Positions 6,914-46,999 of a DNA stretch of 64,000 nucleotides are shown piece by piece. The notes beneath the pieces were generated by a model. That model ran no database searches. It was not told where the DNA came from and saw only the letters and a list, made by a program, of their open reading frames with translations. Numbering within the stretch: position 1 is the stretch's first letter; each line of letters begins with the position of its first letter. Origin of the DNA: Desmonostoc muscorum LEGE 12446 (lineage in GTDB: Bacteria > Cyanobacteriota > Cyanobacteriia > Cyanobacteriales > Nostocaceae); assembly GCF_015207005.2 (NCBI RefSeq), contig NZ_JADEXS020000001.1:5156001-5220000 (forward strand), written 5' to 3'. The translations under genes were made by a program, and so were the position numbers.

Positions 6914-7017
6914 CGCATCCCCTCACACGAAAATCAATCTAGCGGCAGAAAACCTTTCTTCACCACAGAATATAGCACGATACTAAGTTTAGGAAAGAAT
7001 ATACTACGATACTAAAT

Positions 7018-10021: not shown

Positions 10022-10515
10022 TTATTGTCTATCTATCTCCTTGATCGACTTGACCAAGAAGCGTGGGCTAATAATTGTGGCAAACGCTTCTAGGGTAATA
10101 CTGGGTGTGCAGTAAAGTTGTGGTTCCACCCCAAAATAACGCTCTGTGTCAACAGATAGCTCTAGCCACTCAACAACCTGGTGCAGCGACTGAGTGGTAG
10201 GACTGAGTAGGTTTTAGATGAGGTATGTATCGCCAAAAAAATATTATTTGCATATGCATATCTATGTATACAGATAGATAGACTTTTTTATTTTGCTCCT
10301 TGATAAGATACTTAAACGAACTTAAAGGAATGTCGCATTCTAAATCATTATAATTCCTCAAGGTTCTAAAGCGAATCTTTGGAGCCATAATTGTTTTAGC
10401 CGTGGCTATCGATGAGGAGTTTAAATACCAGTAAGACACTGGTGAAGGTATTTCCTAGAAATGAGGAGCGGCAAAAAGAAAGGTTGCCTCTCTGTTAAAG
10501 GTCGGACGCCAGCAG
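10022..10515. other. kaiA / histidine kinase divergent intergenic region
   Basis: This gap separates divergent kaiA and the hybrid kinase and should contain both promoters. An 89-codon minus-strand open frame (10170-10439) is present but has no recognisable features and is AT-rich; I do not call it. The stretch at about 10460-10535 (GGTGCCCGTGAGTGCAAGTC) is GC-richer than its surroundings and may be structured RNA, but I cannot name it. Confidence 0.4.
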
Positions 10516-10680
10516 GTGCCCGTGAGTGCAAGTCCCATTGTTTTAATGGCGTTGAATATCGTAACCAAAATTGCTTATATGAGTCTTCTTAGAGGATATG
10601 GCTTCAGGCGCAAAGAACATCGGCAGTTGGCAGATGGGAATGCCGGAGTTTTCCGCAGGAAGAATGACCCCCAAAGCCTT

Positions 10681-30504: not shown

Positions 30505-31632
30505 ATGCGCCTGACTTCACTGGATGTTTTTCGCGGTATTACCATCGCTGCGATGATTCTCGTCAATATGATGGGAGTTGCAGACGATGTGTATCCTCCC
30601 TTCGCCCACGCTAATTGGCACGGCTGTACACCAACTGACTTGGTATTTCCTTTTTTTCTCTTCATTATCGGTGTAGCGATGACTTTTTCTCTGTCGAAGT
30701 ACACCGAAGATAATAAGCCAAACTCAGCTGTTTACTGGCGGATATTGCGCCGCGCCGCCATTCTCTTTGTTTTGGGATTAGTACTAAATGGCTTTTGGAA
30801 TCAAGGTGTTTGGACTTTTGATTTAGGTAGCATCCGGTTGATGGGGGTGTTGCAACGCATCAGCATTACCTATCTGCTGGCTTCTTTAATAGTTCTCAAC
30901 TTGCCGCGCAAAGGGCAATGGATACTAGCAGCAGTGCTACTCGTCGGCTACTGGCTAACGATGATGTATCTACCAGTACCCGATTATGGGGCGGGAGTTC
31001 TGACGCGGGAAGGTAATTTCGGTGCTTATGTTGATCGGCTGATTATTCCGAAAGCACATTTATATAAAGGTGATGGTTTCAAGTTTATGGGAGATCCAGA
31101 GGGACTTTTCAGTAGCATTCCTGCAATAGTTAATGTCCTCGCTGGCTACTTCACTGGGCAATGGATACGCAGCCAGCCTGTACAGTCGCGCACAAGTATC
31201 GGGTTAGGATTATTTGGAGTCGGTTGTTTAATTATTGGTTGGGCGTGGGGGTGGACATTCCCCATTAATAAAAAATTGTGGACAAGTTCTTATGTGGTTT
31301 TTACAACAGGTTGGGCATTGTTGTTGCTAGCAGCTTGTTATGAACTCATCGAAGTACGGCTGATACGTCGCTGGGGTAAACCTTTTGAAATTATGGGCTT
31401 AAATGCGATCGCTCTTTTCGTTGCATCTGTTTTATTGATTAAAATCTTAGTCAAAACCACTATTGGTACAGGAGAAAACGCTCCTAGTACCTACAATTGG
31501 ATTTACCAGAATTTTTTTGCATCTTGGGCAGGGGTGCTGAATGGTTCCCTGTTTTTTGGCATAGTTACAGTGTTGTTGTGGTGGGTTGTTGGTGTTGTGA
31601 TGTATCGCCAACGCTGGTTTTTGAAAGTGTAA
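30505..31632 (+). CDS. DUF5009 / heparan-alpha-glucosaminide N-acetyltransferase-like membrane protein
   Basis: A 375-residue polytopic protein with about ten membrane segments. The opening RLTSLDVFRGITIAAMILVN with its Asp and Arg, and a short luminal motif ending in FAHANWHGCTPTDLVFPFFL, are characteristic of the HGSNAT-like/YeiB-related acyltransferase family. The His in ANWHG corresponds to the active His in that family. The bacterial role is likely acetylation of surface glycans, but the substrate is unknown. Monocistronic. Confidence 0.85.
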   Translation: MRLTSLDVFRGITIAAMILVNMMGVADDVYPPFAHANWHGCTPTDLVFPFFLFIIGVAMTFSLSKYTEDNKPNSAVYWRILRRAAILFVLGLVLNGFWNQGVWTFDLGSIRLMGVLQRISITYLLASLIVLNLPRKGQWILAAVLLVGYWLTMMYLPVPDYGAGVLTREGNFGAYVDRLIIPKAHLYKGDGFKFMGDPEGLFSSIPAIVNVLAGYFTGQWIRSQPVQSRTSIGLGLFGVGCLIIGWAWGWTFPINKKLWTSSYVVFTTGWALLLLAACYELIEVRLIRRWGKPFEIMGLNAIALFVASVLLIKILVKTTIGTGENAPSTYNWIYQNFFASWAGVLNGSLFFGIVTVLLWWVVGVVMYRQRWFLKV

Positions 31633-31640
31633 ATTTGTAG

Positions 31641-31660
31641 AGACGCGATTCATCGCGTCT
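31641..31660. terminator. 20-bp palindromic repeat, terminator-like
   Basis: AGACGCGATTCATCGCGTCT, eight bases after the stop of the membrane protein gene and in a convergent gap before cmpD. It is a variant of the repeats at 18846 and 27433. Confidence 0.5.
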
Positions 31661-31723
31661 CCACCCAAGGATATGTTGCAATCATTCGCCTTGAAGGGAA
31701 GGGAGGCGTCTGTGGAATTCAAG

Positions 31724-32578
31724 TTAACCTACGTCATCGTGGGCGAAACGGTTAAACAGGAAGTCCAGGGCATAGTTACGCAGTTGATAATATTGTGGAT
31801 CTTCCATGATGCGGGCGCGATCGCGGGGACGAGAAAAAGGTATTTCCATGACTTCGCCAATCTTTGCATGTGGGCCGTTGGTCATCATCACCAATTTATC
31901 TGCTAAAAATAGCGCCTCATCGATGTCGTGGGTAATCATCAACACTGTGCAGCGGTTTTCATTCCAAATTTTCAGGAGCTCTTCTTGTAACTCTTCTTTG
32001 GTGATGGCATCCAACGCCCCAAAAGGTTCGTCTAAAATTAAGACTTTGGGGCGAATCGCCAAAGCGCGGGCGATGGAAACTCTTTGTCTCATACCACCGG
32101 ACATTTGCATTGGTTTCTTTTCCATTGCGTCAGCCAGTCCCACCATTGCTAAATGATCGCGGACGATCGCTCTTTTTTCAGCTTGTGGTTTATTGGGATA
32201 AACGGCGTTCACAGCTAAGTAAATATTTTCAAAAGCAGTCCGCCACGGTAACAAGGCATAGTTTTGGAAGACAACCATTCTGTCTGGGCCTGGTTTGGTA
32301 ATGGGCTGTCCTTCTAGTAATACTTGCCCAGAGGTGGGAAAGTTAAAACCGGATACCATATTTAACAGCGTAGATTTACCACAGCCAGAGTGACCGATGA
32401 CACAAATAAATTCGCCTTGTTCGACGTTGAGGTTAACGCCATCGAGTACGGTGAAAGGGCCTTTTTTTGTGGGATAGACTTTGGTAACGTCTTTGATTTG
32501 TAGGAAGGGCTGGCGGGTGCGGGCTGTATTTTCTAGTGGGTTTCTGATGTCGGTAATTGTTGAGTTACGGTTTTGCAT
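31724..32578 (-). CDS. cmpD: Bicarbonate/nitrate-type ABC transporter ATPase (CmpD/NrtD)
   Basis: A 284-residue ABC ATPase of the nitrate/sulfonate/bicarbonate class. Walker A GHSGCGKST, QNYALLPWRTAFENI, signature MSGGMRQRVSIARAL, Walker B VLILDEPFGALDA and MITHDIDEALFLADK are visible. The ATG at 32578 (MQNRNSTITDIR) fits the family's usual length. The frame stays open to 32956 through a minisatellite, which would add 126 repetitive residues (VEPLNSEVAPFCLN); I regard that as unlikely to be translated. It pairs with CmpC. Choice of cmp over nrt rests on context (see CmpA). Confidence 0.75.
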   Translation of the reverse strand: MQNRNSTITDIRNPLENTARTRQPFLQIKDVTKVYPTKKGPFTVLDGVNLNVEQGEFICVIGHSGCGKSTLLNMVSGFNFPTSGQVLLEGQPITKPGPDRMVVFQNYALLPWRTAFENIYLAVNAVYPNKPQAEKRAIVRDHLAMVGLADAMEKKPMQMSGGMRQRVSIARALAIRPKVLILDEPFGALDAITKEELQEELLKIWNENRCTVLMITHDIDEALFLADKLVMMTNGPHAKIGEVMEIPFSRPRDRARIMEDPQYYQLRNYALDFLFNRFAHDDVG

Positions 32579-32639
32579 GGTGATTTGGGGATTGGGTATT
32601 GGGTATTGGGGACTGGGGACTCCTGGCGGCGAACTGTTA

Positions 32640-33035
32640 AAGTTTAAAAGCTCGTTAATGGAGTTTAAAGGCTCAACGTTCAAGCAAAAAGGTGCAACTT
32701 CCGAGTTCAGAGGCTCAACGTTCAAGCAAAAAGGTGCAACTTCCGAGTTCAAAGGCTCAACGTTCAAGCAAAAAGGTGCAACTTCCGAGTTCAAAGGCTC
32801 AACGTTCAAGCAAAAAGGTGCAACTTCCAAGTTCAGAGGCTCAACGTTCAAGCAAAAAGGTGCAACTTCCGAGTTCAAAAGCTCAACGTTCGAGTCAAAA
32901 GGTGCAACTTCCGAGTTCAGAGGCTCAACCTTCGAGTAAAAAGGTGCAACTTCCAAGTTCAGAGGCTCAACCTTCGAGTCAAAAGGTGCAACTTCCGAGT
33001 TCAGAGGCTCAACGTTCGAGTCAAAAGATTCATAG
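32640..33035. repeat. 42-bp minisatellite (2 x 21 bp) between cmpC and cmpD
   Basis: About nine imperfect copies. Each 42-bp unit is made of two 21-mers, one like AGGCTCAACGTTCAAGCAAA and one like AGGTGCAACTTCCGAGTTCA. The length is a multiple of three, so several frames on both strands stay open. It fills most of the gap between the end of cmpC and the start of cmpD on the minus strand. Confidence 0.92.
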
Positions 33036-33079
33036 GTGATGTCCTATTTCTTCCACTTCCTCTTTCTCTCACGATTCTT

Positions 33080-35086
33080 TTATGAGGCGAGTTTTCTTCT
33101 CGGTGCATCAAGAACAACTTCGGCGACTGAAAAATCACGTTTAATTTTCAAACTGTTGAGATAGGCAATTGGATCGTCGGCGTTAAAGGGAGTACCATCA
33201 AAGAGTTTGATGGGTTGGCGAATATAGCTAATATCTAAGCCTAATTCCCGTGCTGCGGTACTGAAAACACGCACTCGACACACGCGTTCCACAACTTCCA
33301 CCCAATTCCTGGGAAAGGGAGTGTCACCCCAACGCGCTAATTGACTCATAATCCAAATTTGTTCGGTGCGACTGGGGCGATTAATGGCAGACTCGGAATA
33401 AAACTGGTGATGGGCATAGTCTCGCAGGGGATGGTTCAAGTCACAAGTCAGACTATCTGGATCTTCAAGTTGAATGTATTCTAAATCAGTGCTGACATAC
33501 TCTCGCCCTGCTAAAATTTGCCGAATTTCTTGGGCATTGTCGGGGTTTGCACAGTATTGACAAGCTTCTAGCAAGGCTTTGGTCAAGGCGATGTGGCTAT
33601 TTGGGTAAGTTTCTGCCCACTCTTCCCGCACTCCCAGAACTTTACCGGGGTGTCCTAGCCAAACTTCCAAGTCGGTGGCGATGGTAAAGCCAACACCTTC
33701 CACGGCGGCGCGGTAGTTCCAAGGTTCGCCAACGCAGTAACCATCAATGCTTCCGGCTTGCAAGTCGGCTACCATTTGGGCTGGGGGAATGGTCTTCATG
33801 TCCACGTCGGTGTCGGGGTCTATGCCACCAGCAGCCAGCCAGTAACGTAGGAGTAAGTTGTGCATAGATGCGGGATGCACTACTCCCATTGTGTGTCTTT
33901 GATCGCGGGTGCCAAGGAGGTATCTTTTGAAGTCTGATAAGCTTTGCACGCCTTGGTCATAAAAGCGTTTTGCTAAGGTGATGGCGTTACCGTTGCGGGT
34001 CATGGTGAGGGCGGTGACAACAGGCAAAGGTTGGTTGTTGTGTCCTCCCAATGTTAGCCACATGGGCATCCCTGAAGGCATTTGAGCCGCATCCAAATAA
34101 CCGCCAGTCATGCCATCAACTATACCCCGCCAACTACTTTCCCGCACTAGGTGAACTTCATCTAAACCATGCTTGACAAAGAAGCCTTTTTCTTTAGCAA
34201 CTGCTAAGGGGGCGCAAGCGGTGAGAGGTAAAAAGCCAATTTCTAAGTTAACTTTTTCTAACCCATGACGGGCAATGTCGGCTGTTTTTCTGGCGCGAAG
34301 TTTCTTAATCCGTTTTTGCTGATTGAGGAAGTAAATCATCTCACTCCGCAAGCTGTAGTAGCTGGGATGTTCTACAACTTCCATGCGCTTGCGGGGTCTG
34401 GGGATATCTACTTCGAGAATGTCCCCAATTTTAGATTCGGGGCCGTTGGTCAGCATCACAATTCTGTCAGATAACAGCACCGCTTCATCTACATCATGGG
34501 TGACCATGACGGCAGTGACTTCATTTTCTTCGCAAATTTGCATGAGTTGTTCTTGCAAATTACCGCGAGTCAGTGCATCCAAAGCGCCAAAGGGTTCGTC
34601 TAGCAGTAATAACTTGGGGCGAATCGCTAAAGCGCGGGCGATCGCCACACGCTGTTTTTGTCCCCCAGATAACATTCCCGGCTGTTTGTCAGCGTGGGGA
34701 CGCAAACCCACCATATCGATATGTTTTTCGATAATCGCGTTGCGTTCAGCTGCGGGTAAACCCTTCATTACTGAATCTACCGCCAAGGCAATATTTTCTC
34801 TGACTGTCCGCCAAGGTAATAGGGAATAATTTTGAAAAACCACCATCCTATCCGGGCCTGGTTTGCTGATTCTTTGTCCTTCTAAGGTGACAATACCTTC
34901 ACTGGGCAAATCCAAACCTGCAATCATATTTAATAAGGTGGATTTGCCGCAGCCGGAGTGACCAATTAAAGAAACAAATTCTCCTTTTTTAATTTGCAGA
35001 TCAATTCCTTTGAGGGCAATATATTTACCACCACCGGTTAATTCAAAAACTTTGTCAATTTGATCGACAGCAACAAATGTAGACAT
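33080..35086 (-). CDS. cmpC: Bicarbonate/nitrate-type ABC transporter ATPase with regulatory binding domain (CmpC/NrtC)
   Basis: A 668-residue fusion. Residues 1-260 are an ABC ATPase (GHSGCGKST; LSGGQKQRVAIARAL; LLLLDEPFGALDALT). Residues about 280-660 are a domain homologous to the binding protein CmpA/NrtA (LEIGFLPLTACAPLAVAKEK; WLAAGGIDPDTDVDMKTIPP). In NrtC this domain is regulatory, sensing the substrate or ammonium signal. It is 110 bases downstream of the flv2 remnant and followed by cmpD on the same strand. The insertions in flv2 may isolate it from the cmpA promoter. Confidence 0.78.
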   Translation of the reverse strand: MSTFVAVDQIDKVFELTGGGKYIALKGIDLQIKKGEFVSLIGHSGCGKSTLLNMIAGLDLPSEGIVTLEGQRISKPGPDRMVVFQNYSLLPWRTVRENIALAVDSVMKGLPAAERNAIIEKHIDMVGLRPHADKQPGMLSGGQKQRVAIARALAIRPKLLLLDEPFGALDALTRGNLQEQLMQICEENEVTAVMVTHDVDEAVLLSDRIVMLTNGPESKIGDILEVDIPRPRKRMEVVEHPSYYSLRSEMIYFLNQQKRIKKLRARKTADIARHGLEKVNLEIGFLPLTACAPLAVAKEKGFFVKHGLDEVHLVRESSWRGIVDGMTGGYLDAAQMPSGMPMWLTLGGHNNQPLPVVTALTMTRNGNAITLAKRFYDQGVQSLSDFKRYLLGTRDQRHTMGVVHPASMHNLLLRYWLAAGGIDPDTDVDMKTIPPAQMVADLQAGSIDGYCVGEPWNYRAAVEGVGFTIATDLEVWLGHPGKVLGVREEWAETYPNSHIALTKALLEACQYCANPDNAQEIRQILAGREYVSTDLEYIQLEDPDSLTCDLNHPLRDYAHHQFYSESAINRPSRTEQIWIMSQLARWGDTPFPRNWVEVVERVCRVRVFSTAARELGLDISYIRQPIKLFDGTPFNADDPIAYLNSLKIKRDFSVAEVVLDAPRRKLAS

Positions 35087-35332
35087 GGCAGTTTCAAAAT
35101 TTGTAATTTGCTCAGAAGATTTAGAACAGATAAAAAAGAAATACCAGACAAAAAGCAGCTTTTCAATAATTACGAATTACGAATTACGAATTACGAATTA
35201 ATAATAGCTGCCGGATTTACGGTATTCGAGGGCGGTTAAGCCATCGTTTTCTAAGACTTCACCTTTATCGATTACGGCATAAATTAACCATCTGTCACCA
35301 CATTTCATTTGATTTTGTACAGTACATTCTAA

Positions 35333-36722
35333 CCCTCTTTTGTCACTCTCGCCAAAGTATAATTAAGTGCGATCGCAAAAAACTAAGACATAGAGTATGG
35401 TTGAGCCTCGCCCAGCTGCACCTACAGTAAAATTTGTGGACGAATACTGCCAGTTATATCAAAAACTATTTCCAGAAGTGAGAAGCTTTGAAGCTTTTAA
35501 GTACCTACATATGGGATGTGTTTCTGATATAAAACGTAAAACTCTACCGGAAATAGCGAAAATTGTCGGGTTAGATAATCATCAAAAATTACATCATTTT
35601 TTAGCAGAATCACCGTGGGATGTCAAAGAATTAAGGAGGCAAAGGTTAGAATTAATATTATATATACTCCAAGGTCGCCCAATCATACTAATCATTGATG
35701 AGACAGGTGATAAGAAAAAAGGAAATAAGACTGATTATGTGAAACGACAGTACATTGGAAATTTAGGTAAAACAGATAATGGTATTGTGGCAGTCACGGC
35801 ATATGCAGTTTTATCTGGAATGACGTTTCCTCTAATATTTGAAGTATATAAACCAAGGGAAAGACTACAACCAGGAGAAAAATATTTAACTAAACCTGAA
35901 ATCGCCGGAGCAATGATTAGAAAATTGCGGTCAATGGGGTTTAGATTCAATCTTGTCCTGGCGGATAGCTTATATGGTGAAAGTGGTAAAAATTTTTTAA
36001 GCGTATTAAATGAATTAGAGCTTAATTTTATTGTAGCGATTCGCTCAAACCATAGAGCATGGGGAATTACAGGCTCGAAAATCAAATATTCAAACTGGCA
36101 AAGATTCCGGCGTGTTTTTTCAGATTTAAGTTCAGAAAATAGATATATTAGAGAGATAATATGTGGCAAAAAATCCGAAGTCAGGTATTGGCAAATAACA
36201 ACGGATATTGAAGTTCTTCCCAAAAACACGACTTGGTATGTCATGAGTAAATATCCAGACATTACTCCAAGAGACGTGGGCAATTTTTATGGTTTAAGAA
36301 CTTGGGTAGAATATGGGTTAAAACAAAGTAAAAATGAATTAGGGTGGGCAGATTTTCGCCTAACTCATTATTCACAAATAGAGAAGTGGTGGGAAATTGT
36401 TTTTAGTGCTTATCTTTTGGTTAGTCTTCATTCCGAACAATTACTTAAATTTCCCCCACAATCTGAATCCAATTTCTCATCGCATCCCTGGTGGGATAAG
36501 GGGAATGGTTGGAATAATATTCTTAATAACCTCCGTTTAATAATTCAACCTTTCGTACTGTTTAATTTAATTAAACCTTGGCTAATAGTCTTTAAAATTC
36601 CTCAGTTATCTGATGGCTTTTGTACGCTTCAAAGGATTGTCAATAGTCTTACTTATTCAATTTTTCAGAATTTCAGTAACCCTAATTTATATTTTTCCTC
36701 TGCCTAGAGTGACAAAAGAGGG
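35333..36722 (+). mobile_element. IS701-type insertion sequence in flv2
   Basis: A 1390-bp element. The terminal inverted repeats are CCCTCTTTTGTCACTCT (35333-35349) and AGAGTGACAAAAGAGGG (36706-36722), perfect over 17 bases. It is flanked by CTAA on both sides (35329-35332 and 36723-36726), a 4-bp duplication that fits the YTAR preference reported for the IS701 family. It appears complete and may still be active. Confidence 0.93.
35397..36707 (+). CDS. IS701 family transposase
   Basis: A 436-residue DDE transposase. The first Asp is in LIIDETGDKKKG, the second in LVLADSLYGES, and the Glu lies in TWVEYGLKQSKNELGWADFR near residue 315, the usual IS4/IS701 layout. The N-terminal region (LYQKLFPEVRSFEAFKYLHM) is the helical DNA-binding part. 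The stop codon TAG (36705-36707) overlaps the right inverted repeat. The gene is intact and runs opposite to flv2. Confidence 0.93.
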   Translation: MVEPRPAAPTVKFVDEYCQLYQKLFPEVRSFEAFKYLHMGCVSDIKRKTLPEIAKIVGLDNHQKLHHFLAESPWDVKELRRQRLELILYILQGRPIILIIDETGDKKKGNKTDYVKRQYIGNLGKTDNGIVAVTAYAVLSGMTFPLIFEVYKPRERLQPGEKYLTKPEIAGAMIRKLRSMGFRFNLVLADSLYGESGKNFLSVLNELELNFIVAIRSNHRAWGITGSKIKYSNWQRFRRVFSDLSSENRYIREIICGKKSEVRYWQITTDIEVLPKNTTWYVMSKYPDITPRDVGNFYGLRTWVEYGLKQSKNELGWADFRLTHYSQIEKWWEIVFSAYLLVSLHSEQLLKFPPQSESNFSSHPWWDKGNGWNNILNNLRLIIQPFVLFNLIKPWLIVFKIPQLSDGFCTLQRIVNSLTYSIFQNFSNPNLYFSSA

Positions 36723-38201
36723 CTAAATAGGACAATGCTTCATTCAGAATCAGGCAACCATTCACAGCAGTTTGTGTAGAAAGATTGACAAAGGGATTAT
36801 TTCCTAAAACGCTATTTCGGGAAAAATAGCGGCGGACATTTCTACCTTCTTTGAGAATATTCAACACAAATTTATCGCCTGGATGACACATTAAATCTGC
36901 GTTTTGTTCATCAGCAATGGCAATCATAATCCCCGGCGGATTAAAAGTTGCTTGAGATACCCAAGAGGTTAAAACGCCTTTATGGCTTTCTTCATCACGA
37001 GTTGTTAAAACACACAAAGAACCAATAATTCGCCCCACGGCTTGTTCAGTGCGATCTACTTGGGTTTCGGTGACAACTTGACGCGCAGTCCGCAATTTTT
37101 TAGTTTTCTTCAAGTTTTGGGCAAAGGAAGCGCCTGCTTCTTGACACTGTTGCAGAATTTCAGGTGTAGGCGTAAAGCAGACTCGAATTGTTTCAAATCC
37201 TAGACGATAATTGGCATCTTTGAGCTTACTTTCAAGTAAGTCAATTGCTTCTCCACTCCAACCAAATGAACCAAATACTCCTGCTAATTTTGTTTTAGCT
37301 GCTGTGGCTAGAACTATTCCTAAAGCAGTTTGAATTTGGGTTGGTGCATGGCCGCCTAAGGTGGGTGAGCCAATAATAAATCCGTCGCAAGCTTCGACAA
37401 TGCGGGTAATTTCTGCTGGTTCTGCTAGTTCACAGTTGATGGACTCTACATTAACTCCATTTTGAATTAAACCTTGAGCGATCGCATTAGCCAAAATTGC
37501 CGTATTCCCGTAAGCAGAGGCATAAAGTAAAGCAACACTCAATTCTTGTAATTTTTGTCCTTGACACCATTGACGATAATCAAAAGTAAATCGGCTGAGG
37601 CTGTAACGAACAACAGGCCCATGAGCAGGAGCGTAACATTTTGCTGGGAAAACCGAAAGTTTTTCTAAGGCAACTTCAACTTGTTTGGCTTGGGGTGCGT
37701 GGAGACAGTCAAAATAGTAATGACGTTCTGCATCTAAACTTTTCCAGTCTTCATCGAAGAGGGTATCTTCGCAAATATGAGCGCCAAAAAATTTGTCTGT
37801 ATAAAGAATTTTAGTAGCAGAATCATAGGTACACAATCCATCTGCCCATCGAGGAGTCGGTACGCTAACAAATGTGAGATGATGTCCTTGTCCTAAATCC
37901 AGAGTATCCTCTGAACGCACAGCTTGAATGCGTGATTCCCATTCCGGAAAACTAGTTTTCAGAGCATTAGCAGCAGGGCGAGAACAAATTAAAGTAGCTT
38001 GAATAGCTTGGGAAAGTAATACTTGTAGAGTGGCTCTACGGTTCGGGTTGACATGACCGAGAACAATGTAATCTAGGGTAGTGAAATCTAGATATTGTGC
38101 CAGTTGTTGGAGATAAATTTCGGTAAAAGATTCACCAGGAGGATCGATTAAAGCCTTTTTATCAGCTTGGGGACTTCCAGAAAATAAACTATTCCATTAG
38201 C

Positions 38202-38220
38202 AATAATGATAATCATTTTT
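38202..38220. promoter_or_regulatory. Fur-box-like palindrome, left end of IS
   Basis: The 19-mer AATAATGATAATCATTTTT matches the consensus Fur box GATAATGATAATCATTATC at 16 positions. It lies about 80 bases before the transposase start. The core AATGATAATCATT recurs at the right end (39700-39712, reverse) and upstream of flv4 (42532-42544). Binding is not proven. Confidence 0.45.
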
Positions 38221-38265
38221 AAGGGGGATGAAGGGGCTGCCGACGGCAGCCCCTTCATCCCCCTT
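38221..38265. repeat. Perfect 21-bp-stem hairpin, left IS end
   Basis: AAGGGGGATGAAGGGGCTGC continues to a GAC loop and its exact inverse. The stem is 21 bp without mismatches, followed by TTT on the plus strand. It lies between the IS end and the transposase start and could stop transcription from outside or bind transposase. Confidence 0.85.
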
Positions 38266-38298
38266 TTGTAGTAATTTGAATAATGATTGAGTTTTTGA

Positions 38299-39548
38299 GT
38301 GTGGCAACTGGTGACTATAGTATTAACTGATTCTCTTAAAAAGTTGTTGATTGAAACTGCATCTCAATTAAAAGGTGCTGAAAAGCGTAAATTTATGGCA
38401 CAGACAGTTCAGGGCTTAGGTTTAGGAGGGCAAAGGCTTGCACAATCAGAACTAGGATGGAATAGAGACACAATTCGGAAAGGGACAAGAGAATTAAAAA
38501 GCGGTATTACTTGTGTTGATAACATGAGTGGCAAAGGACGTTATAAAGCAGAAGAACACCTACCAAATCTTTTAGAAGATATAAAAAATTTAGTTGACTT
38601 TTATAGTCAAACAGATCCGAGTTTTAAAAGTCAAAGACTATATACTAGACTCAGTGCAGCCGAAGTCAGAAAGCAATTAATCGAAAAGTATGGTTACAGC
38701 GATGAAAAGTTACATACATCAGAAACAATTCGAGTCAAATTAAATAATTTAGGTTACAAGCTCAGAAGGGTAAAGAAAGTTCAACCTCAAAAAAAATTCC
38801 ACAAACTGATGCAATCTTTGAGCAATTAGACATTGTAAATAAAGATGCTTCAGAAGATAAGAGTGTTTTACGTCTAAGCATGGACGGAAAAGCCCGTGTT
38901 AAGATCGGCTCATTTGACCGAGGGGGTAAAAGCAGGGATGGAGCGAAGGCTGACGACCATGATTATAATCCGAAGACAACTGTAACTCCTTATGGTATCT
39001 TTCTTCCAGAGCTTGATGAGCTATTTTTATACTTTACGGAATCGAAAGCTACAAGCGATTTTATTGTTGATATTCTAGAAGATTTTTGGTTAGAAGAAAA
39101 GCATCGTTTTTCTGATATTCAAACCCTACTTCTCAATCAAGATAACGGGCCACAGAATAGCTCACGGCGTACTCAATTTATGAAACGTATAGTAGAGTTT
39201 GTGCAAAAACATCAAGTAAATATACGTTTAGCTTACTATCCGCCCTATCATAGTAAATATAATCCGATAGAAAGGACGTGGGCAGTACTAGAAAATCACT
39301 GGAATGGTAGCATTTTAGATGAACTAGAAACGGCTCTAAATTTTGCCAGCACTATGACATGGAACGGGAAACATCCAGTCGTTAAGTTAGTACACGAAAC
39401 TTATGAGAATGGGGTCAAGCTTACAAAAAAAGCTATGGCTCAAATTGAAAAACAGATTGAGCGGCTAACCGATTCTACTCATGAAGTTTTCCCAAATTTA
39501 GGTAATTGGTTTATTGATATTTGTTGTAGTAAAACAAAAGTTATTTGA
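38299..39548 (+). CDS. ISAzo13 family transposase, needing a -1 frameshift
   Basis: The transposase is encoded in two frames. The first part begins at GTG 38299 (MWQLVTIVLTDSLKKLL) and would stop at 38829. The second part is open in the -1 frame. A run of eight A at 38789-38796 lets the ribosome slip from QKK into IPQTDAIFEQLDIVNKDASE and on to LRLSMDGKARVKIGSFDRGG. The joined protein carries the DDE-type catalytic core, with Asp in RLSMDGKARVKIG and LLNQDNGPQNSS and a late Glu in YNPIERTWAVLENHW. This may be programmed frameshifting or a recent mutation. Confidence 0.85.
38789..38796 (+). promoter_or_regulatory. Slippery A8 run, likely -1 frameshift site
   Basis: The eight-A run contains A-AAA-AAA in the zero frame, a classic -1 slippery heptamer. 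The downstream frame is open and continues the transposase sequence without loss. No stimulatory stem-loop was identified by eye. Confidence 0.65.
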
Positions 39549-39649
39549 TTTTAATAACAGCATTTATTTAGCTACAAAACATACTAATCCTACACTGTTT
39601 AACTTTAAAATAGATGACAAGTGTATAGATTCTTCATGCATAGATGATC

Positions 39650-39688
39650 GGGAGAAAAGGGGTTGCCGAGGGCAACCCCTTTTCTCCC
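39650..39688. repeat. Perfect 18-bp-stem hairpin, right IS end
   Basis: GGGAGAAAAGGGGTTGCC, loop GAG, then its exact inverse, followed by a long C run. It mirrors the hairpin at the left end in placement but has a different sequence. Confidence 0.85.
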
Positions 39689-39698
39689 CCCCCCCTTA

Positions 39699-39715
39699 AA
39701 ATGATTATCATTCTT
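39699..39715. promoter_or_regulatory. Fur-box-like palindrome, right end of IS
   Basis: AAATGATTATCATTCTT contains the inverse of the core AATGATAATCATT found at the left end; the full 19-mer matches the Fur consensus less well (about 15 positions). It is subterminal, about 55 bases from the IS border. Confidence 0.35.
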
Positions 39716-40008
39716 GAGAAAACATATTTCTTGTTTTTCTTGGAATAATTTATTCTTTGGAAGTCCCTTGAATGAGATAAGAATTTGCCGTAGTTCCCCG
39801 TTGGCGGGAATACTCAACTTCAAATTTTAGTCGTTCCCAAGTCCGCGATCGCAAAACCAGTGTATCTTTACCAATTTCAGCAACCTGCACATCTCTCGGA
39901 CGGCTGGCAGTTACAGTATTAGCAGACATAGTAACCTCTCTCTGGGAATTGGGCATGGGGCATGAAGGAGATAAAATTCTTGTAGCGATTAATCGCGTCT
40001 TCTTGTAC

Positions 40009-40028
40009 AGACGCGATTAATCGCGTCT
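40009..40028. terminator. 20-bp palindromic repeat, terminator-like
   Basis: AGACGCGATTAATCGCGTCT, seven bases beyond the stop of the minus-strand sll0218-like gene and preceded by a partial copy (39984-40000). It is the same family as at 18846, 27433 and 31641. Here it lies inside the presumed flv operon, so it may reduce flv2 expression. Confidence 0.5.
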
Positions 40029-40034
40029 CTACTG

Positions 40035-40547
40035 CTAACTCCCATTACTTTCGACTAATTCCGATTTGACTCGATTTTTATAGCGTTTAGACATTGCTTG
40101 TTCAGGATCAATGCCTTCAAAGGTGGGGGGTAGCCAAACTCGAACAACGAGTATTATTCCTAAAACTAATAAAAAGGCACAAGTGGCTAAAATTTGACTC
40201 CAATTAGTTTCTAAAACTCCTTTAACAATGACTTCTCGCAAGGCGGAAACAATGGAGACTTCTACAGCTACACCAATAGATATTCGTTGTTCTTGCAAGT
40301 AAATAATCAGCAGTCGAAACAACTCAACTAAGATGAGCAAAAAGAGAATATCGGCAGTAACAATATGAAAATCCAGTGGGGGAAGCAGGGAGAAAAACAT
40401 ATCTCTCACCTGAATTACCATGAAGCAAAATAAACCGAGACACAGAGAAATCACAATCAAATCTTGAATCAATTCCAAGGTTTGGACGATGCGTTTGCGA
40501 TGGATTTCATAGGTGGGAATTGGGGTATCTTGAGCAGTCTTATACAT
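40035..40547 (-). CDS. PsiE-like membrane protein, Sll0218-like
   Basis: A 170-residue protein with about four hydrophobic segments (LIVISLCLGLFCFMVIQV; ADILFLLILVELFRLLIIYL; ILATCAFLLVLGIILVVRVW), resembling the phosphate-starvation-inducible PsiE family. It sits between flv4 and the flv2 remnant in the same direction with ~100-base gaps. This is the place of sll0218 in the Synechocystis flv4-sll0218-flv2 operon, whose product is a membrane protein that stabilises PSII. The assignment as Sll0218 is from position and topology. Confidence 0.75.
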   Translation of the reverse strand: MYKTAQDTPIPTYEIHRKRIVQTLELIQDLIVISLCLGLFCFMVIQVRDMFFSLLPPLDFHIVTADILFLLILVELFRLLIIYLQEQRISIGVAVEVSIVSALREVIVKGVLETNWSQILATCAFLLVLGIILVVRVWLPPTFEGIDPEQAMSKRYKNRVKSELVESNGS

Positions 40548-40570
40548 GGCTTTTTGTGTGTGAGGAAATG

Positions 40571-40601
<31 letters not shown>

Positions 40602-40648
40602 GATGAGGGAGATGGGTAATTACCAATGCGCCATGCCCCATGCCCCAT

Positions 40649-42382
40649 TTAGTAATGATTGCCAATTTTGCGGTGATGGACGGCGGTGAGTCCGTTGACT
40701 TTGGCAACTCGGCCGGTTTGGACAGTGCTATAAATCACCCAATGATCTCCACAATCCATGCGGCTGGTGATTTCACATTCGAGATAAGCCAGGGCTTCAG
40801 CTAAAATGGGGGATTCGTTGGTAGCAGCAGGGTATGTTTTGATTCCAGCAAAGCGATCTGCGCCGGGAGCAAAACGCTTGAGGAAATGTTTCATTAATCC
40901 TTGATATCTGCCTTCTTCTAAAATATTTAAGACAAAGCGATCGCCAACGTGCATCAATGATTCTATGGCGCGGTCTTTGGCTACGGCGATCGCTACGCCT
41001 AAGGGATTCAAACTTGCTTGTGTTACCCAAGAAGCCAGCATTGCACTTTGAACTTCCCCTTTTTTGGCGGTGAGAATATATAATCCTGTGCTAATCCGCC
41101 CTAAGGATTTCTCTAATTCGCTATTAATTGATTTGATTTGTTTGATGGTGCGATCGCGGTTCAACCATTGACCCATATCTGTCCCCGCTTCATCACAAAG
41201 TTGTTCTGTTGCTTTGGTGGGAATTTCTTTAACTAAAATTGGGGTAAAGGCTTCAATTAATCCTAATTCTTGAAACTTATTGCGTAAGGGAAAAACAGGC
41301 TCATCTTCTCCACCTCCCGACTCTAATAAACCAATTGCTTGTTTATTATGAGCAGCGGCTAAAATAATATTAAAAGCTGCCTGAGCCACATCTGATGATT
41401 GCGGAGGCATTCCAATAACTAAACCAGCAGCTTGGTCAACTAATTCTCGCACTTCTTGAGGTTCGGCATTATTCAAAGCTACTAATTCTACCGCCACACC
41501 TGTCTTTGCAATTCCATGTGCGATCGCTCTTACTAAATTTTCACTATATCCATAATCTTCCACGTAAAACAAAGCCACCAATGTCTCTGTTTTGGCTTGT
41601 TCTAAACTCCAATTTTGATAGCGTCCCAGCCATTCTGGAATATATTCTTTTAATAAAGGCCCGTGTCCTGTGGCAACTGTTTTTATTTCTAACTTTTCAA
41701 TTCGTTTTAAAGCTGCCAATACAGACCGAGCATTGGGAGCCATCAGACAATCATAGTAATATTGAAAATCTTCTTCGATGATCTCGAAATTTTCATCATA
41801 AGTATGGTCATCACAGTAATGCATTCCAAACACATCACAGGTGTAAAGAGTGCAGGTTTTGTGGTCATAAGTCAAGATTGTATCAGGCCAGTGTAAGTTA
41901 GGAGCGGAGATAAATTCTAGTTGATGTCCGTTGCCTAAATCTAATAACTCGCCACTTTTTACCAGCTTGGATTTAAAAGGCTGGTGAATCATATTTTCCA
42001 AAAATTGAATAGCTATCTTCGCACCAACAACGGTAATGGAAGGAGCTAGTTGTAAAATATTTTTTACTAAGCCACTATGGTCTGGTTCGGTGTGACTAAT
42101 AATCAAGTAGTCAATTTTAGCTGGATCAATTAATCCTGCCACTATCTCCAGATATAACTGCTCAAACTTGCTATGAGAAGTATCAACTAAGGCTACTTTT
42201 TCTCCCTGAATTAAGAAAGAATTATAGGTCGTGCCATTCCGTAAACCAAACTCGACATCAAAACGTTCTCTATCCCAATCAAGGCAACGGATAGCAGTCG
42301 TTTCCGGAGCAATTTCAACAGTTTCAATTGTTAAACGTCCGGGATTAGGAATAACTTGAGTAGGCTGTGTGAGTGCGACCAT
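40649..42382 (-). CDS. flv4: Flavodiiron protein Flv4 (diflavin flavoprotein)
   Basis: A 577-residue three-module protein: beta-lactamase-like diiron domain (about 35-270), flavodoxin-like FMN domain (about 270-405) and flavin reductase C-terminal domain (about 430-577). Canonical metal ligands are present in ISHTEPDHSG, with the later Asp in YTCDVFGMHYCDD and His in VATGHGPLL. Flv4 and Flv2 act as a heterodimer accepting electrons on the acceptor side of PSII in low CO2 and high light. Flv4 is chosen over Flv3 because of the following sll0218-like and flv2 genes. Without Flv2 its function here is uncertain. Confidence 0.8.
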   Translation of the reverse strand: MVALTQPTQVIPNPGRLTIETVEIAPETTAIRCLDWDRERFDVEFGLRNGTTYNSFLIQGEKVALVDTSHSKFEQLYLEIVAGLIDPAKIDYLIISHTEPDHSGLVKNILQLAPSITVVGAKIAIQFLENMIHQPFKSKLVKSGELLDLGNGHQLEFISAPNLHWPDTILTYDHKTCTLYTCDVFGMHYCDDHTYDENFEIIEEDFQYYYDCLMAPNARSVLAALKRIEKLEIKTVATGHGPLLKEYIPEWLGRYQNWSLEQAKTETLVALFYVEDYGYSENLVRAIAHGIAKTGVAVELVALNNAEPQEVRELVDQAAGLVIGMPPQSSDVAQAAFNIILAAAHNKQAIGLLESGGGEDEPVFPLRNKFQELGLIEAFTPILVKEIPTKATEQLCDEAGTDMGQWLNRDRTIKQIKSINSELEKSLGRISTGLYILTAKKGEVQSAMLASWVTQASLNPLGVAIAVAKDRAIESLMHVGDRFVLNILEEGRYQGLMKHFLKRFAPGADRFAGIKTYPAATNESPILAEALAYLECEITSRMDCGDHWVIYSTVQTGRVAKVNGLTAVHHRKIGNHY

Positions 42383-42711
42383 TGGTTTTCTCCAATCAAG
42401 AGATTATCTAGAGCAAGTGTGCTTACTTCTTATATTTACCCGAAATATTTGATTAGTAAAATGCTAATTTCTAAAGTTAACTATCAAAAAGATTTATTGT
42501 TCATTTCCATTGATTTATCATTGAAGAAATCAATGATTATCATTAGTTTGATCTGGGGACTGGGGACTGGGAAGAAGGAATAAAGGTGTACCTAGCTTCC
42601 CAAAAATCAAATATGAGTCCTATAAGTCTGCTAGCGTCGTATAAAGACTGTTTTACTTGCAAATTCAGAATTCAGAATTCTGACTCCTGAATTCTGAATT
42701 CTGCCATATCA
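42383..42711. other. cmpB-flv4 intergenic region
   Basis: This 329-base gap should hold the flv4 promoter. It contains the Fur-like palindrome, a GGGGACTGGGGACTGGG short repeat (42555-42571) and GAATTC-type repeats next to the end of cmpB (42664-42705). No gene is seen. In Synechocystis the start of flv4 is covered by an antisense RNA; none can be recognised here from sequence alone. Confidence 0.5.
42529..42547. promoter_or_regulatory. Fur-box-like palindrome upstream of flv4
   Basis: The palindromic core AATGATTATCATT (42532-42544) is about 150 bases upstream of the flv4 start. The outer bases match the 19-bp Fur consensus poorly. It may be an iron-responsive operator, or chance in AT-rich DNA. 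Confidence 0.3.
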
Positions 42712-43551
42712 TTACTTCTGTTCTGCTGGTAAAATCTTGTTTTGCAGCCAACCCATTGCTTTATCTAGAATTAAGCCAACAACACCGATATAAACTAGAG
42801 CCAAAATAACTTCGCTGACGTTGTTATTTTGATAAGCATCCCAGATAAAAAAGCCAATGCCGACAATACCGGACATGACGATTTCAGCAGCAATAATGGC
42901 TAACCAAGCTAAACCGATCGCAATTCTCAATCCGGTAAAAATATACGGTAATGCCGCAGGAATCAAAATATTAGTGAAATATTCTTTGCGGCTAAGTTGC
43001 AGAACTTTAGCAACGTTGTTGTAATCTTGGGGAATTTGGGTGACGCCGACAGCAGTGTTAATTAAAATCGGCCAAATTGCAGTAATGAAAATGACGAATA
43101 ATGCAGCCGGTTCGTTTTGTCGTAAAGCTGCTAAAGAAATTGGTACCCAAGCCAAAGGTGGTACTGTCCGTAGCAATTGAAAGATAGGATCTAAAGCCTT
43201 GGACATGGTTTTATTAACACCAATTAAAATGCCCAAGCCAATACCCACAATTGCCGCAAGTGTATAACTAATAGCGACTCGTTGGAGACTAGCAAGAATC
43301 TGCCAAAACAGACCTTTATCGATGCCCCCTCGGTCATAAAATGGCCAGAAAATGAGTATCCAAGTATCTTGTATAACCTGTATCGGCCCTGGTAATGTTG
43401 CACCGGGAGTCCAAGCGAAAAGTTGCCAAAGAACTAGAAATATGGTGATGGCGATCGCTGGTGGTATAAGGTCAGGAAATTGCTTTTGAAGACGAGATAT
43501 AAAGCCATTATTAAATCTAGGGCTTGCAGGGCGTTTTTGGGCGAGCGTCAT
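42712..43551 (-). CDS. cmpB: Bicarbonate/nitrate-type ABC transporter permease (CmpB/NrtB)
   Basis: A 279-residue membrane permease of the nitrate/taurine/bicarbonate class with about six membrane segments. The EAA-type loop reads NVAKVLQLSRKEYFTNILIP, and the C-terminal segment begins with GIVGIGFFIWDAYQNNNVSE. It lies 63 bases downstream of cmpA on the same strand, surely the same operon. It should form the channel with CmpC and CmpD, whose genes are displaced by the flv cluster. Confidence 0.8.
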   Translation of the reverse strand: MTLAQKRPASPRFNNGFISRLQKQFPDLIPPAIAITIFLVLWQLFAWTPGATLPGPIQVIQDTWILIFWPFYDRGGIDKGLFWQILASLQRVAISYTLAAIVGIGLGILIGVNKTMSKALDPIFQLLRTVPPLAWVPISLAALRQNEPAALFVIFITAIWPILINTAVGVTQIPQDYNNVAKVLQLSRKEYFTNILIPAALPYIFTGLRIAIGLAWLAIIAAEIVMSGIVGIGFFIWDAYQNNNVSEVILALVYIGVVGLILDKAMGWLQNKILPAEQK

Positions 43552-43614
43552 AACCTATGTTCTCCTCAAATTTTATTTGTTCTTGGCTGTTTGTCAGTTA
43601 TCAATGACCAATGA

Positions 43615-44997
43615 CTAAATATTGACCTTCTTGATTTTCAAACTCTTGAGATATTCTTCTGGCTTTTCAGGGTCGAATTTGATGCCATCAAAAAATTCTT
43701 CTACCCCACGAGATGTGTTTGTAGGAATATCAGCAACAGTAATACCAGCTTCTTTGGCTGCTTCTTTCCAAATATCTTCGCGGTTGACTTTATTAATTAG
43801 TTCCTTAGCTTTAGCGGCATTATTGGCAATGTAATCTTTTGGTAGAAATCCCCAGCGGACGTTTTCCACAATGAACCATAAATCATGACTTTTGTAGGGA
43901 TAAGAAACATTACCTTTTTCATCTTTCCAGTAGTAAGCTGCCATTGATTTATCATCAATTTTGCGACCATCACCCATGTCATACTTGCCTTGGTATGGAT
44001 CTGCAAGAATCTCAGGTGACGAAAGATTAAAATAATTTCGTCCAGCAAGAATTTCAGCCGCTTCTTTGCGGTTGTCAAAATTATCTAACCACTGCTGCGC
44101 CTCCATAATTCCTTTTAAAATTGCTTTGGTTGCCTTGGGATTTTTATCAACCCAGTCAGCTCTCATGGCAAGATATTCTTCAGGATGATTCTTCCAAATT
44201 TCTGCTGTCAATGCTGCTACATACCCAATTTTGTCTTGAACAAGGCGATAAGGCCAGGGGTCACCTGTACTAAAGGCATCCATTGTTCCTGTTTTCATGT
44301 TGGCGACAGTTTGCGCTGCTGGTACTGTGAGCAATTTGACATCTGTATCTGGGTCTAAACCGCCTGCTGCTAACCAGTAGCGAATCCACAAATCTTGGTT
44401 GACGTGGGGAAAGGTGAATGCTGCGGTGAAAGGTGTTGAGGATTTGAGTTCGGTGAAGAGGGATTTAGCGCTAGCCAGTTGTAAACTGATACCTTTGCCT
44501 TGGTGCTTGCTGGCGATCGCAATTCCATTTCCATGTGTGATTAATTGGCATAATACATACATGGGAATTTTTTGATTGCCTTTGGTAATTAAACCTTCTG
44601 TAATTAAATGTGGCATTGGCATCTGCCATTGACCGCCATCAATACCACCACCCGCAGAACCAATTTCTACATTATCTCTAGCCGCACCCCAAGAAGCTTG
44701 CTTAGAAAGGTCAACTTTGGTCATGCCGTATTTGGCGAAAAAGCCTTTTTCTTTAGCAATAATTAAAGGAGCCGCTTCTACAATCGGAATATATCCTAAT
44801 TTGACTGTAGTAGTTTCTGGTGTTTGTTCAGGACTAATATTAACAACTGACTGAGCAGTTGGTTGTGCTTGAGTAGCTTCACCAGTTAGGTTTTCAGGTG
44901 GATTGCCCAAACAACCTTTGAGAAATACAGCACTCGCAGATGCTCCAGCTGTGAAGATAAATTTGCGCCGAGAAATTCGATTAAAAAATTCTGTCAT
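43615..44997 (-). CDS. cmpA: Bicarbonate-type ABC transporter substrate-binding lipoprotein (CmpA, NrtA-like)
   Basis: A 460-residue binding protein with a twin-arginine-like start ([12 protein letters not shown]) and a lipobox Cys in LKGCLG near residue 29. The binding core includes [19 protein letters not shown] and [15 protein letters not shown]. At the site where NrtA has Lys for nitrate, this protein reads [12 protein letters not shown] with Glu, as I recall for the bicarbonate/calcium site of CmpA. That, plus the flv4-flv2 neighbourhood and absence of nir or narB genes, favours CmpA. NrtA remains possible. GAGGAGA just upstream (45002-45008) is a good ribosome binding site. Confidence 0.75.
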
Positions 44998-45757
44998 AAT
45001 ATCTCCTCGAATGTAAATTTTATTTTTATCGCCACGACAATTGAAGCAAGAAAAACGTTAATTTCTTGCAATTCAATGAGTAATCAAGCTATATTTTGCA
45101 AGGCAAAGTCAGCCATTTCATCAATGGCTATTGCTACTGCCTAAAACAAAATTTCAATCAATTGATTAAATCTGCTCTCGTGTGATGCAGAAGTGTTATT
45201 CACCTGGTTGAAATAAGTTTACAGCCTTTAATGCCGAATTTGTTAACTATGAGTCGGCATTTATTAAATAAATATTAGATTGGATGTATAAGTAAAAATT
45301 TATCTATTTGCCTAAACTATAGTAGTAATTCTTAATATATAAAGTCTGATTTATGAATACTATTAACTTGAGATTATGATTTACAAAAAAGTAAATCATA
45401 AGCGAAATCAATCGTAATCATAGTAAAAAAACTGAATGATTTAGAATACAAAATAAGAAGATAGAATTCAGTATTCAGAATACTTCGATACCAAGGTTAA
45501 TAATCATACTGCGTAGGTTGGGGAGCCAGTAAATGTAGTGGCGTGGCAAGGCTAAAATAGTGCATTAGTAGGTTGGGTTGAGCTTTCGCGTTACCCAACG
45601 TGGATCTCGGTGTTGGGTTTCGTTCCTCAACCCAACCTACAAATTTATTGCAACATTTTAGTCTTGCCACGCCACTACATCTACATCTATTAGCCTTGAA
45701 CTTCAGCTCAACGCTGGTGACTCAATTCTGAATACAGAATTCAGAATTCTGTATTCT
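44998..45757. other. Intergenic region upstream of cmpA
   Basis: About 760 bases without a gene. The first 250 bases next to cmpA are AT-rich and should contain its promoter; in other species this promoter is controlled by the LysR-type CmpR, but I cannot place a site with confidence. Further on are a MITE (45538-45675) and GAATTC-type repeats (45722-45756). Confidence 0.55.
45538..45675. mobile_element. TA-flanked MITE (IS630/mariner type), copy 2
   Basis: A 138-bp element. The left end is GTGGCGTGGCAAGGCTAAAA; the right end is TTTTAGTCTTGCCACGCCAC, its near-inverse. It is flanked by TA on both sides (45536-45537, 45676-45677). The interior is a hairpin built on GTAGGTTGGGTTGAG and its inverse, unlike that of copy 1 at 23950-24078. 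Confidence 0.82.
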
Positions 45758-46999
45758 TCAAGTAGTGTATTCTGCGTTAATCCTCACGTAGTCATAACTC
45801 AAATCACAACCCCAAGCTTTACCTGTACCATGACCATTGCCAACGCTAACGGAAATTAACACTGTATCCTCTTGGAGATAAGCACCTACCGCAGCTTGCT
45901 TCAAATAGGTGCTGGCTGCTGCACGGTCGAATGGTAATGGTTGCCCGTTTTCTAACATTAAGAAATTCCCTAGCTTAATTTGCAGGTTTTCTTGCTCAAA
46001 AAGTACACCTGCGCGTCCAGCGGCGGCGGCGATACGTCCCCAGTTGGGGTCACGTCCAAAGATTGCAGATTTAACTAAGGATGAACCAGCGATGGTTTTG
46101 GCTATTTGTCTGGCTGAGAGTTCATCATGGGCGCCAGTCACTTCCACTTCTATAAGGCAGGTTGCACCTTCACCATCACGAGCGATCGCTTTGGCTAAAT
46201 GCTGGCAAACTGCTGTTAACATCGCTTCTAATCTCTCTGATTCTGCACCCAATTCTGTAATTGCTGGGGTGCGAGATTGACCGTTTGCTAGGGCGATTAA
46301 GCTGTCGTTAGTGCTGGTGTCACCATCCACGGTAATGGAATTAAAACTTCTATCAGCTGCCCTGGCTAACATCTGCTGCCAAAGGGCTGGTGAAACCGCA
46401 GCATCACAGGTCACAAAGGCCAGCATGGTTGCCATGTTGGGGTGAATCATGCCGGAACCTTTGGCAATACCACCAATCCGCACGGGGCGATCGCCTATAG
46501 TTGTCTCTAAGGCAATGGATTTTGGTACCAAATCTGTGGTGATAATCGCACCGGCGGCGGCATCTGAGCCTGTTTCTGATAGTGCTGCTACTAGCTTTGG
46601 AATCCCGCTTCGCAAAGCATCCATCTTAATTCTTTGACCAATCACGCCAGTAGACGCCAATAACACAGATTCAGACGGAATATTCAGTGCTTGAGCTATT
46701 GCCATTCCCGATTCTAGGGCGTCAATCCAGCCTTGATTTCCTGTAGCGGCGTTTGCTTGTCCAGCGTTGCAGAGAATAGCACGAGCGCTATGTTTAGCTT
46801 GCAAGCGTTGGCGACAATAGTCTACACAAGCAGCTTTCACCTGGCTAGTGGTGAATACACCCGCTGCGATCGCTTCCACATCTGAAAATATCAAAGCTAA
46901 ATCCGGCAACCCCGAAGGCTTCAGTCCTGCGGTAATTCCCGCCGCCTGATATCCCCTTGGTGCTGTGATGCCACCTGTTATTTTTTGCCAATCTGCCAT
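45758..46999 (-). CDS. argJ: Bifunctional glutamate N-acetyltransferase / amino-acid acetyltransferase ArgJ
   Basis: A 413-residue ArgJ. It recycles acetyl from N-acetylornithine to glutamate and, in bifunctional forms, makes acetylglutamate from acetyl-CoA, for arginine biosynthesis. The self-cleavage site is the Thr in GMIHPNMATMLAFV near residue 190, which splits the protein into alpha and beta chains. GDTSTNDSLIALANG and DPNWGRIAAAAGRAG are family signatures. Intact length. It is not clustered with other arg genes, as is usual in cyanobacteria. Confidence 0.96.
   Translation of the reverse strand: MADWQKITGGITAPRGYQAAGITAGLKPSGLPDLALIFSDVEAIAAGVFTTSQVKAACVDYCRQRLQAKHSARAILCNAGQANAATGNQGWIDALESGMAIAQALNIPSESVLLASTGVIGQRIKMDALRSGIPKLVAALSETGSDAAAGAIITTDLVPKSIALETTIGDRPVRIGGIAKGSGMIHPNMATMLAFVTCDAAVSPALWQQMLARAADRSFNSITVDGDTSTNDSLIALANGQSRTPAITELGAESERLEAMLTAVCQHLAKAIARDGEGATCLIEVEVTGAHDELSARQIAKTIAGSSLVKSAIFGRDPNWGRIAAAAGRAGVLFEQENLQIKLGNFLMLENGQPLPFDRAAASTYLKQAAVGAYLQEDTVLISVSVGNGHGTGKAWGCDLSYDYVRINAEYTT

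Follow-up and report, generated by a model that had tools for sequence, protein, structure and literature searches.

What has happened to flv2, the gene for one half of a photosynthetic safety valve that reduces oxygen, in the cyanobacterium Desmonostoc muscorum LEGE 12446, and how did the flv4-sll0218-flv2 (flv4-2) operon to which it belongs come to lie inside cmpABCD, the operon of the bicarbonate transporter BCT1? Both questions are raised by one stretch of 64,000 nucleotides, the window (contig NZ_JADEXS020000001.1, positions 5,156,001 to 5,220,000), in whose own numbering positions are given below unless a relative's locus is named. Our answer, to which as a whole we would give a probability of roughly 0.8, is that flv2 is a recent pseudogene produced by two separate transpositions and that the flavodiiron cassette around it seems to have moved between the cmp operons of several Nostocaceae genera. 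That an insertion sequence (IS) should inactivate one gene is commonplace; what is of interest is the mobile composite operon.

An earlier note on this DNA claimed that two different insertion sequences split flv2 (35198..39929, minus strand), and this is borne out to the base. The coding sequence lies in three pieces, 39768-39929, 36723-38169 and 35198-35332 (duplicated bases counted on each side). One interruption is a 1390-bp element of the IS701 family (35333..36722, plus strand; transposase 35397-36707) with the ends CCCTCTTTTGTCAC.../...GTGACAAAAGAGGG and the target duplication CTAA on both flanks (35329..35332 on the left, 36723..36726 on the right); the other is a 1598-bp element of the ISAzo13 family (38170..39767, plus strand) with the ends GGGACTTCC.../...GGAAGTCCC, flanked by TTG (38167..38169 on the left, 39768..39770 on the right). 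Removal of each element with one repeat copy leaves exactly the 1737 nt, or 579 codons, that the note had calculated, i.e. 578 amino acids (aa) and a single stop, and both junctions fall within aligned blocks when the product is compared with the neighbouring Flv4, the adjacent paralogue against which the note had matched them (35% identity, 197/569). The intact gene of Nostoc sp. FACHB-973 (L175) is a stronger control than this paralogue: the locus is near-identical, flv2 is uninterrupted, the empty ISAzo13 site is identical to the one predicted, and the IS701 target carries one synonymous difference (TTGG vs TTAG). Over the whole gene, 27 of 1737 positions differ from our rejoined sequence, 23 of them within the last 226 nt.

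Is the rejoined product really Flv2? It is 99% identical to the Flv2 of FACHB-973, as against 55-57% to the Flv1-type genes of its own genome, a comparison among Flv2 proteins known from sequence only, and 82-95% identical to the best 120 of 5554 homologues. Its gene is on the same strand as sll0218 and flv4 and adjoins them, and its diiron ligands, in a comparison limited to this motif, are non-canonical (HVNPNR vs HTEPDH in Flv4). Flv2 lacking canonical ligands is described for flv4-2 operons in an excerpt of PMC4390876. A search of the whole genome (9,635,616 bases, 12 contigs) with Flv4 as the query found no second flv2 beyond the three pieces; the other flavodiiron genes are two Flv3-like genes, 62-66% identical to Flv4, and two Flv1-like genes, for which the 55-57% match to rejoined Flv2 extends over nearly its full length, forming two pairs. 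The note's proposal that Flv2, and with it a Flv2/Flv4 heterodimer, is lost is thus supported at the level of sequence, and flv4 and the sll0218-like gene are still open, as it had also said: flv4 (40649..42382, minus strand) encodes 577 aa with the canonical HTEPDH motif, and the sll0218-like gene (40035..40547, minus strand), of the Pfam PsiE family and in most relatives likewise flanked by flv4 and flv2, encodes 170 aa. The arrangement resembles the flv4-sll0218-flv2 operon of beta-cyanobacteria as excerpted in PMC4390876, with the same order of flv4, intervening gene and flv2 and the same division into canonical Flv4 and non-canonical Flv2 ligands; it differs in being inside cmpABCD and in having flv2 interrupted twice.

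Each element is also present elsewhere in the genome at 100% identity over its full length, and therefore the losses look recent. For the IS701-family element, there is one other full copy, on contig C2, flanked by ATAA/ATAA; for the ISAzo13-family element, there are three, flanked by TAA/TAA in every case. These repeats have the same lengths as those in flv2, so duplications of 4 bp and 3 bp, respectively, are normal for the two elements. We rejected decay of the rejoined flv2 frame: its sole private residue at a well conserved column is R384C, unseen in 34 other Flv2 proteins, and the other rows have from 0 to 16 such residues. Thus, the identical copies, the intact sister strain and the single private residue all support the recent insertion that the note had suggested. 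The likeness to other IS-inactivated cyanobacterial genes is plain, this being ordinary transposon inactivation with target duplications, except that flv2 was hit by two different elements and that their empty sites are known in a sister strain.

Curated models support the family assignments of both elements, with a reservation for the ISAzo13 transposase. The IS701 transposase scores 257 bits against the NCBIfam profile transpos_IS701 (cut-off 150), and the inverted ends and the 4-bp duplication are present as well. The two ISAzo13 transposase open reading frames (ORFs) score 172 and 81 bits against an NCBIfam cut-off of 200, each matching part of one profile, because the transposase lies in two frames; for both, Pfam DDE_Tnp_ISAZ013 is above its cut-off. 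Measured from their start codons, these frames are 38299-38829 and 38880-39548 (plus strand), and the open frames overlap at a run of eight A at 38789-38796 (region 38789-38829). They are probably joined by a programmed -1 frameshift, which would give a product of 416 aa. Decay of this transposase was considered and rejected, since no difference separates the four full copies and since a 75% identical copy (L018) is split at the same A8 run, with an unusually conserved overlap.

How often is flv2 lost? We surveyed 160 stretches around sll0218-like genes, in two sets of 80 that share strains (the named set being the best 80 of 364). The gene is in one piece in 146 of them, one of which (L109) has an in-frame stop; it is interrupted in two, cut off by a contig end in four (L169, L171, L178 and L209), and not found in seven (L123, L127, L132 and L138-L141, the last four being checks on more distant sll0218 relatives). 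One of the two interruptions is a separate loss in Nostoc sp. WHI, in which an element of ~240 bp with inverted ends (GCAATACCTTTGCCAA) splits the gene (L161:11153-11396); in the other, in Tolypothrix sp. FACHB-123, the flv2 match ends at codon 294 and unrelated genes follow (L190:11500). Nostoc cf. edaphicum LEGE 07299 has flv4 and sll0218, and flv2 was not found in the following 5.8 kb (L179:3994-9844). With flv2 in one piece in 146 of 160 stretches and lost or broken in a few, its loss is uncommon but not unique. In L109 (G048), recombinase-like remnants lie between sll0218 and flv2 (10100-12500), and flv4 carries a frameshift in addition to the stop in flv2.

The earlier note missed the setting of the flavodiiron genes. 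On one strand, the order is cmpA, cmpB, flv4, sll0218, flv2, cmpC, cmpD; in other words, all four BCT1 genes (PDB 2I48, 9U9Z) are there, in order, with three flavodiiron-operon genes and two insertion sequences wedged in after cmpB and before cmpC. The assignment as BCT1 cmpABCD, with bicarbonate binding and transport as the predicted function, is made from sequence comparison: the best PDB match of cmpA (43615..44997), for the bicarbonate-binding protein, is CmpA at 627 bits vs 435 for NrtA; that of the permease gene cmpB (42712..43551) is CmpB at 386 bits vs 321 for the nitrate permease; and that of cmpC (33080..35086, open), for an ATPase with a regulatory domain, is CmpC at 1155 bits vs 890 for the nitrate ATPase. 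The ATPase gene cmpD (31724..32578, open; start taken to be at MQNRNS), like the others on the minus strand, is called Cmp rather than Nrt by its position, without a PDB comparison of its own. NCBIfam names the flanking genes as a nitrate transporter (ntrB, ntrCD), a reading rejected by the PDB comparisons of A, B and C; a separate nrt-like locus lies elsewhere in the genome, and the product of the genome's other full-length NrtA/CmpA-like gene is 51% identical to that of cmpA. Between cmpC and cmpD is a tandem repeat array (32600-33040), with matching repeats in FACHB-973, into which a listed 410-aa ORF of cmpD with a TTG start extends back. The Synechocystis 6803 cmp operon carries slr0042 between cmpB and cmpC, for which a literature search gave no supporting paper; this is an extra gene at the same joint, but a different gene.

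Two genus-mates (G006 and G142) have a contiguous cmpABCD near gatB, where the window also has its cmp genes, and carry their flv4-2 operon elsewhere, which argues that the flavodiiron operon was placed into cmpABCD. The full nested order recurs in six relatives: L143, L146, L147, FACHB-973, a Goleter apudmare metagenome-assembled genome (MAG; L184 = L081) and L084. Cut, rearranged or decayed versions occur in five more, of which two (L142 and L169) are consistent with the nested order and cut by contig ends. In the Desmonostoc geniculatum MAG (G110; L145 = L062), flv4 to cmpD are in place and cmpAB is ~27 kb off in the opposite orientation; the breakpoint of the rearrangement lies between cmpB and flv4 (L062 and L269). 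Comparison with this MAG also puts in perspective the patches of ~8-22% divergence between the window and FACHB-973 (~4751-5071 and 6583-7000 of the joined region; elsewhere 0-3%): it is FACHB-973 that deviates, the flv2-cmpC spacer excepted, in which both differ. A link between these patches and the IS sites was dropped, since beside both sites the window is nearer to the MAG and FACHB-973 is again the deviating one.

Across wider samples, linkage of the two operons is a minority state. Among 145 genomes drawn from the family, a close homologue of sll0218 (E up to 1e-50) is present in 88, CmpA (E up to 1e-180) in 110 and both in 72, with the two within 12 kb in eight (G000, G002, G005, G007, G015, G035, G047 and G089); among 291 drawn from the order, the corresponding numbers are 136, 136 and 82, with four linked (G000, G273, G309 and G375). 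Linkage was judged from coordinates by eye, and the unlinked counts (64/72 and 78/82 at 12 kb) include contig breaks. Even so rare a state exceeds the ~0.25 linked genomes of 72 expected from random placement in genomes of ~7 Mb, a rough estimate that ignores relatedness. Besides the nested order, there are four further kinds of adjacency: cmpABCD-flv4-flv2-sll0218 (L125, L129 and L273), flv4-flv2-sll0218-cmpABCD (L134), flv4-sll0218-flv2 divergent from cmpABCD (L270 and L272), and flv4-flv2-cmpABCD with sll0218 divergent (L271). Among the titles and abstract openings listed in searches of open PMC, a scope outside of which are subscription papers and supplements, none reports flv4-2 inside or beside cmpABCD, and the excerpts consulted make no mention of such linkage either. 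flv4-2 operons can reside on plasmids: in Pseudanabaena sp. PCC 7367 (L274), a plasmid typed as conjugative carries flv4-psiE-flv2 ~4 kb from phycocyanin genes, and plasmid entries of Nostoc linckia NIES-25 and Nostoc carneum NIES-2107 appear, by name alone, among the matches listed. No cmp genes were found within 9 kb of the Pseudanabaena operon, the one record from the plasmid collection, from which records very near the window were possibly left out.

Did the nested cassette arise once and descend, or has it moved? Nested flv4 and nested flv2 each fall in a single clade with good support (99/96 and 100/99) that includes one non-nested row and is distinct from the clade of the window's genus-mates, and the nested rows are scattered in the trees of cmpA, cmpB, cmpC, cmpD and gatB, in which several forks are weakly supported. 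In approximately unbiased (AU) tests, a single clade of nested flv4 is not rejected (p 0.40), whereas a single clade of nested cmpC (p 5.9e-5) or cmpA (p 2.4e-55) is, the cmp tests having been run without the out-rows G089 and G007; grouping the flv4 of the window's group with that of the genus-mates is also rejected (p 0.005). With nested flv4 and flv2 in one clade and the host cmpA and cmpC not, one cassette has apparently spread among cmp operons. On this account, a resident cmpABCD would have received flv4-sll0218-flv2, together with the region upstream of flv4, at the joint of cmpB and cmpC, and the cassette would then have passed from one cmp operon to another, either through recombination in the adjoining cmp DNA or as part of a larger block.

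Several points weigh against such exchange. A Rivularia MAG (G045) whose operon is not nested sits within the nested flv clade, so either the cassette has since moved out of cmp or the nest does not go back to one event; there are also loci at which the surrounding cmp genes have been lost, as in Nostoc sp. PA-18-2419 (L144), where a cmpA remnant is all that is left of cmp, and in Anabaena subtropica FACHB-260 (L183 = L085), where an internal deletion fuses cmpC to cmpD (12407-13777) and cmpB is truncated next to an intact flv4-2. The AU tests were set up after the trees had been viewed, with the nested group defined by gene order, and a single insertion, if followed by recombination within cmpA or cmpC, could likewise split the trees. 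Common descent alone would have one ancestral insertion into cmp, later lost from cmp in most descendants, with cmp trees blurred by recombination; the single flv4 clade and the nested remnants and rearrangements agree with it. We nevertheless think it rather unlikely, for the window's genus-mates have a separate flv4-2 clade at another locus, and the scatter of nested rows in the gatB, cmpA and cmpC trees, weak as several forks are, would call for many parallel losses. Movement of one cassette is the simplest reading and the one that we prefer.

Might the strain still make Flv2? Some chromosome copies or filaments of a polyploid culture might keep an intact flv2, the assembly showing the interrupted allele, or the double insertion might have arisen in culture, and the identity of both elements to their other copies does allow for very recent insertion; such polymorphism is nonetheless improbable, as it would take two separate elements in the one gene, each of them the dominant allele, and the interrupted structure sits in an 8.86-Mb contig. 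Still less can be expected of a remnant. A truncated ORF of 412 codons (36682-37920) still codes for the flavodoxin domain and some of the flavin-reductase domain, but the first 136 residues, which cover much of the lactamase-like domain, are missing from it, and its last 43 residues are replaced by 13 others; for Flv4 to do the job alone is equally hard to credit, given that Flv2 and Flv4 are each reported, in the excerpt of PMC4390876, to be non-functional as homodimers. Finally, it is barely conceivable that the inserts are development-specific excision elements that restore flv2 in some cells, like the nifD and fdxN elements of heterocystous cyanobacteria: the nearest named relatives (among the best 80 of 364) are strains of the heterocyst-forming genus Nostoc and the genome has two Flv1/Flv3-type pairs, but both inserts are plain DDE-transposase elements of 1.4-1.6 kb with target duplications and identical copies elsewhere, precise removal would also need deletion of one repeat copy, and neither insert has an excision-type recombinase among its ORFs of at least 80 aa.

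With flv4-sll0218-flv2 inside cmpABCD, the insertions in flv2 are also upstream of cmpC and cmpD. What would this mean for their expression? About 162 bp before the flv4 start is a conserved element, AATGATAATCATT (42532-42544, minus strand), a candidate regulatory site of nested and many free-standing flv4 operons, which we take to be a Fur-box-like core. When the best match in the 400 bp before flv4 was scored, 12 of 13 nested loci (counting same-strain duplicates) and 46 of 134 others had the element, ~160 bp from the start codon, with at most one mismatch; one shuffle per locus gave no match at that level in 147. An alignment of 21 chosen flv4 upstream regions has further conserved blocks, and with the element these suggest that flv4 probably keeps its own promoter. 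The only other exact copies of AATGATAATCATT in the window are in the ISAzo13-family element (38205-38217 and 39700-39712), one near each end and pointing inward. The RbcR motif, given as ATTA(G/A)-N5-(C/T)TAAT in an excerpt of PMC13249358, has no exact match in the operon sense within 31001-46500. Transcription of cmpCD would depend on read-through from either the cmpA promoter or that of flv4, and both routes cross flv2; two insertion sequences with transposases on the opposite strand, together with hairpins near both ISAzo13 ends, would presumably lower cmpCD transcription, and thus the insertions may also dampen these genes for the BCT1 ATPases. Speaking against such dampening, the sole strong terminator-like hairpin of the ISAzo13-family element scores on the plus strand, not in the operon sense; flv4 retains its own upstream region; and an outward promoter within an IS is possible, with a promoter scan doing no better than chance (29 found vs 31.3 expected).

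What, then, does the broken gene mean for this organism and its relatives? Excerpts of PMC6658166 assign the slow, steady-state component of O2 photoreduction at low CO2 to Flv2/Flv4; flv2 and flv4 mutants are described as alike in having lost O2 photoreduction, with other roles of Flv4 alone left open. Because homodimers are reported to be non-functional and flv2 is broken, we predict that LEGE 12446 lacks the Flv2/Flv4 component of O2 photoreduction; without the heterodimer, it would be without the steady-state activity in low CO2 and would depend on its two Flv1/Flv3 pairs. According to an excerpt of PMC4840274, expression of both flv4 and cmpA correlates with bicarbonate in a Microcystis bloom. 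It is possible, and we offer it tentatively, that cmpAB-flv4-sll0218-flv2-cmpCD forms a genuine low-carbon unit, exchanged horizontally, in which bicarbonate import is coupled to a photosynthetic electron sink, one of at least five separately evolved linkages of cmpABCD and flv4-2, and that the insertions in the window shut down the sink and at the same time restrict the pump. What Flv2/Flv4 does, and how it relates to carbon limitation, is still under debate, and this natural flv2 knockout and its near-identical intact sister FACHB-973 are a ready comparison pair, with the proviso that lost cmpCD expression may confound any flv2 phenotype of such strains. More broadly, the repeated and differently arranged linkage of flv4-2 with BCT1 suggests selection for joint travel or joint expression.

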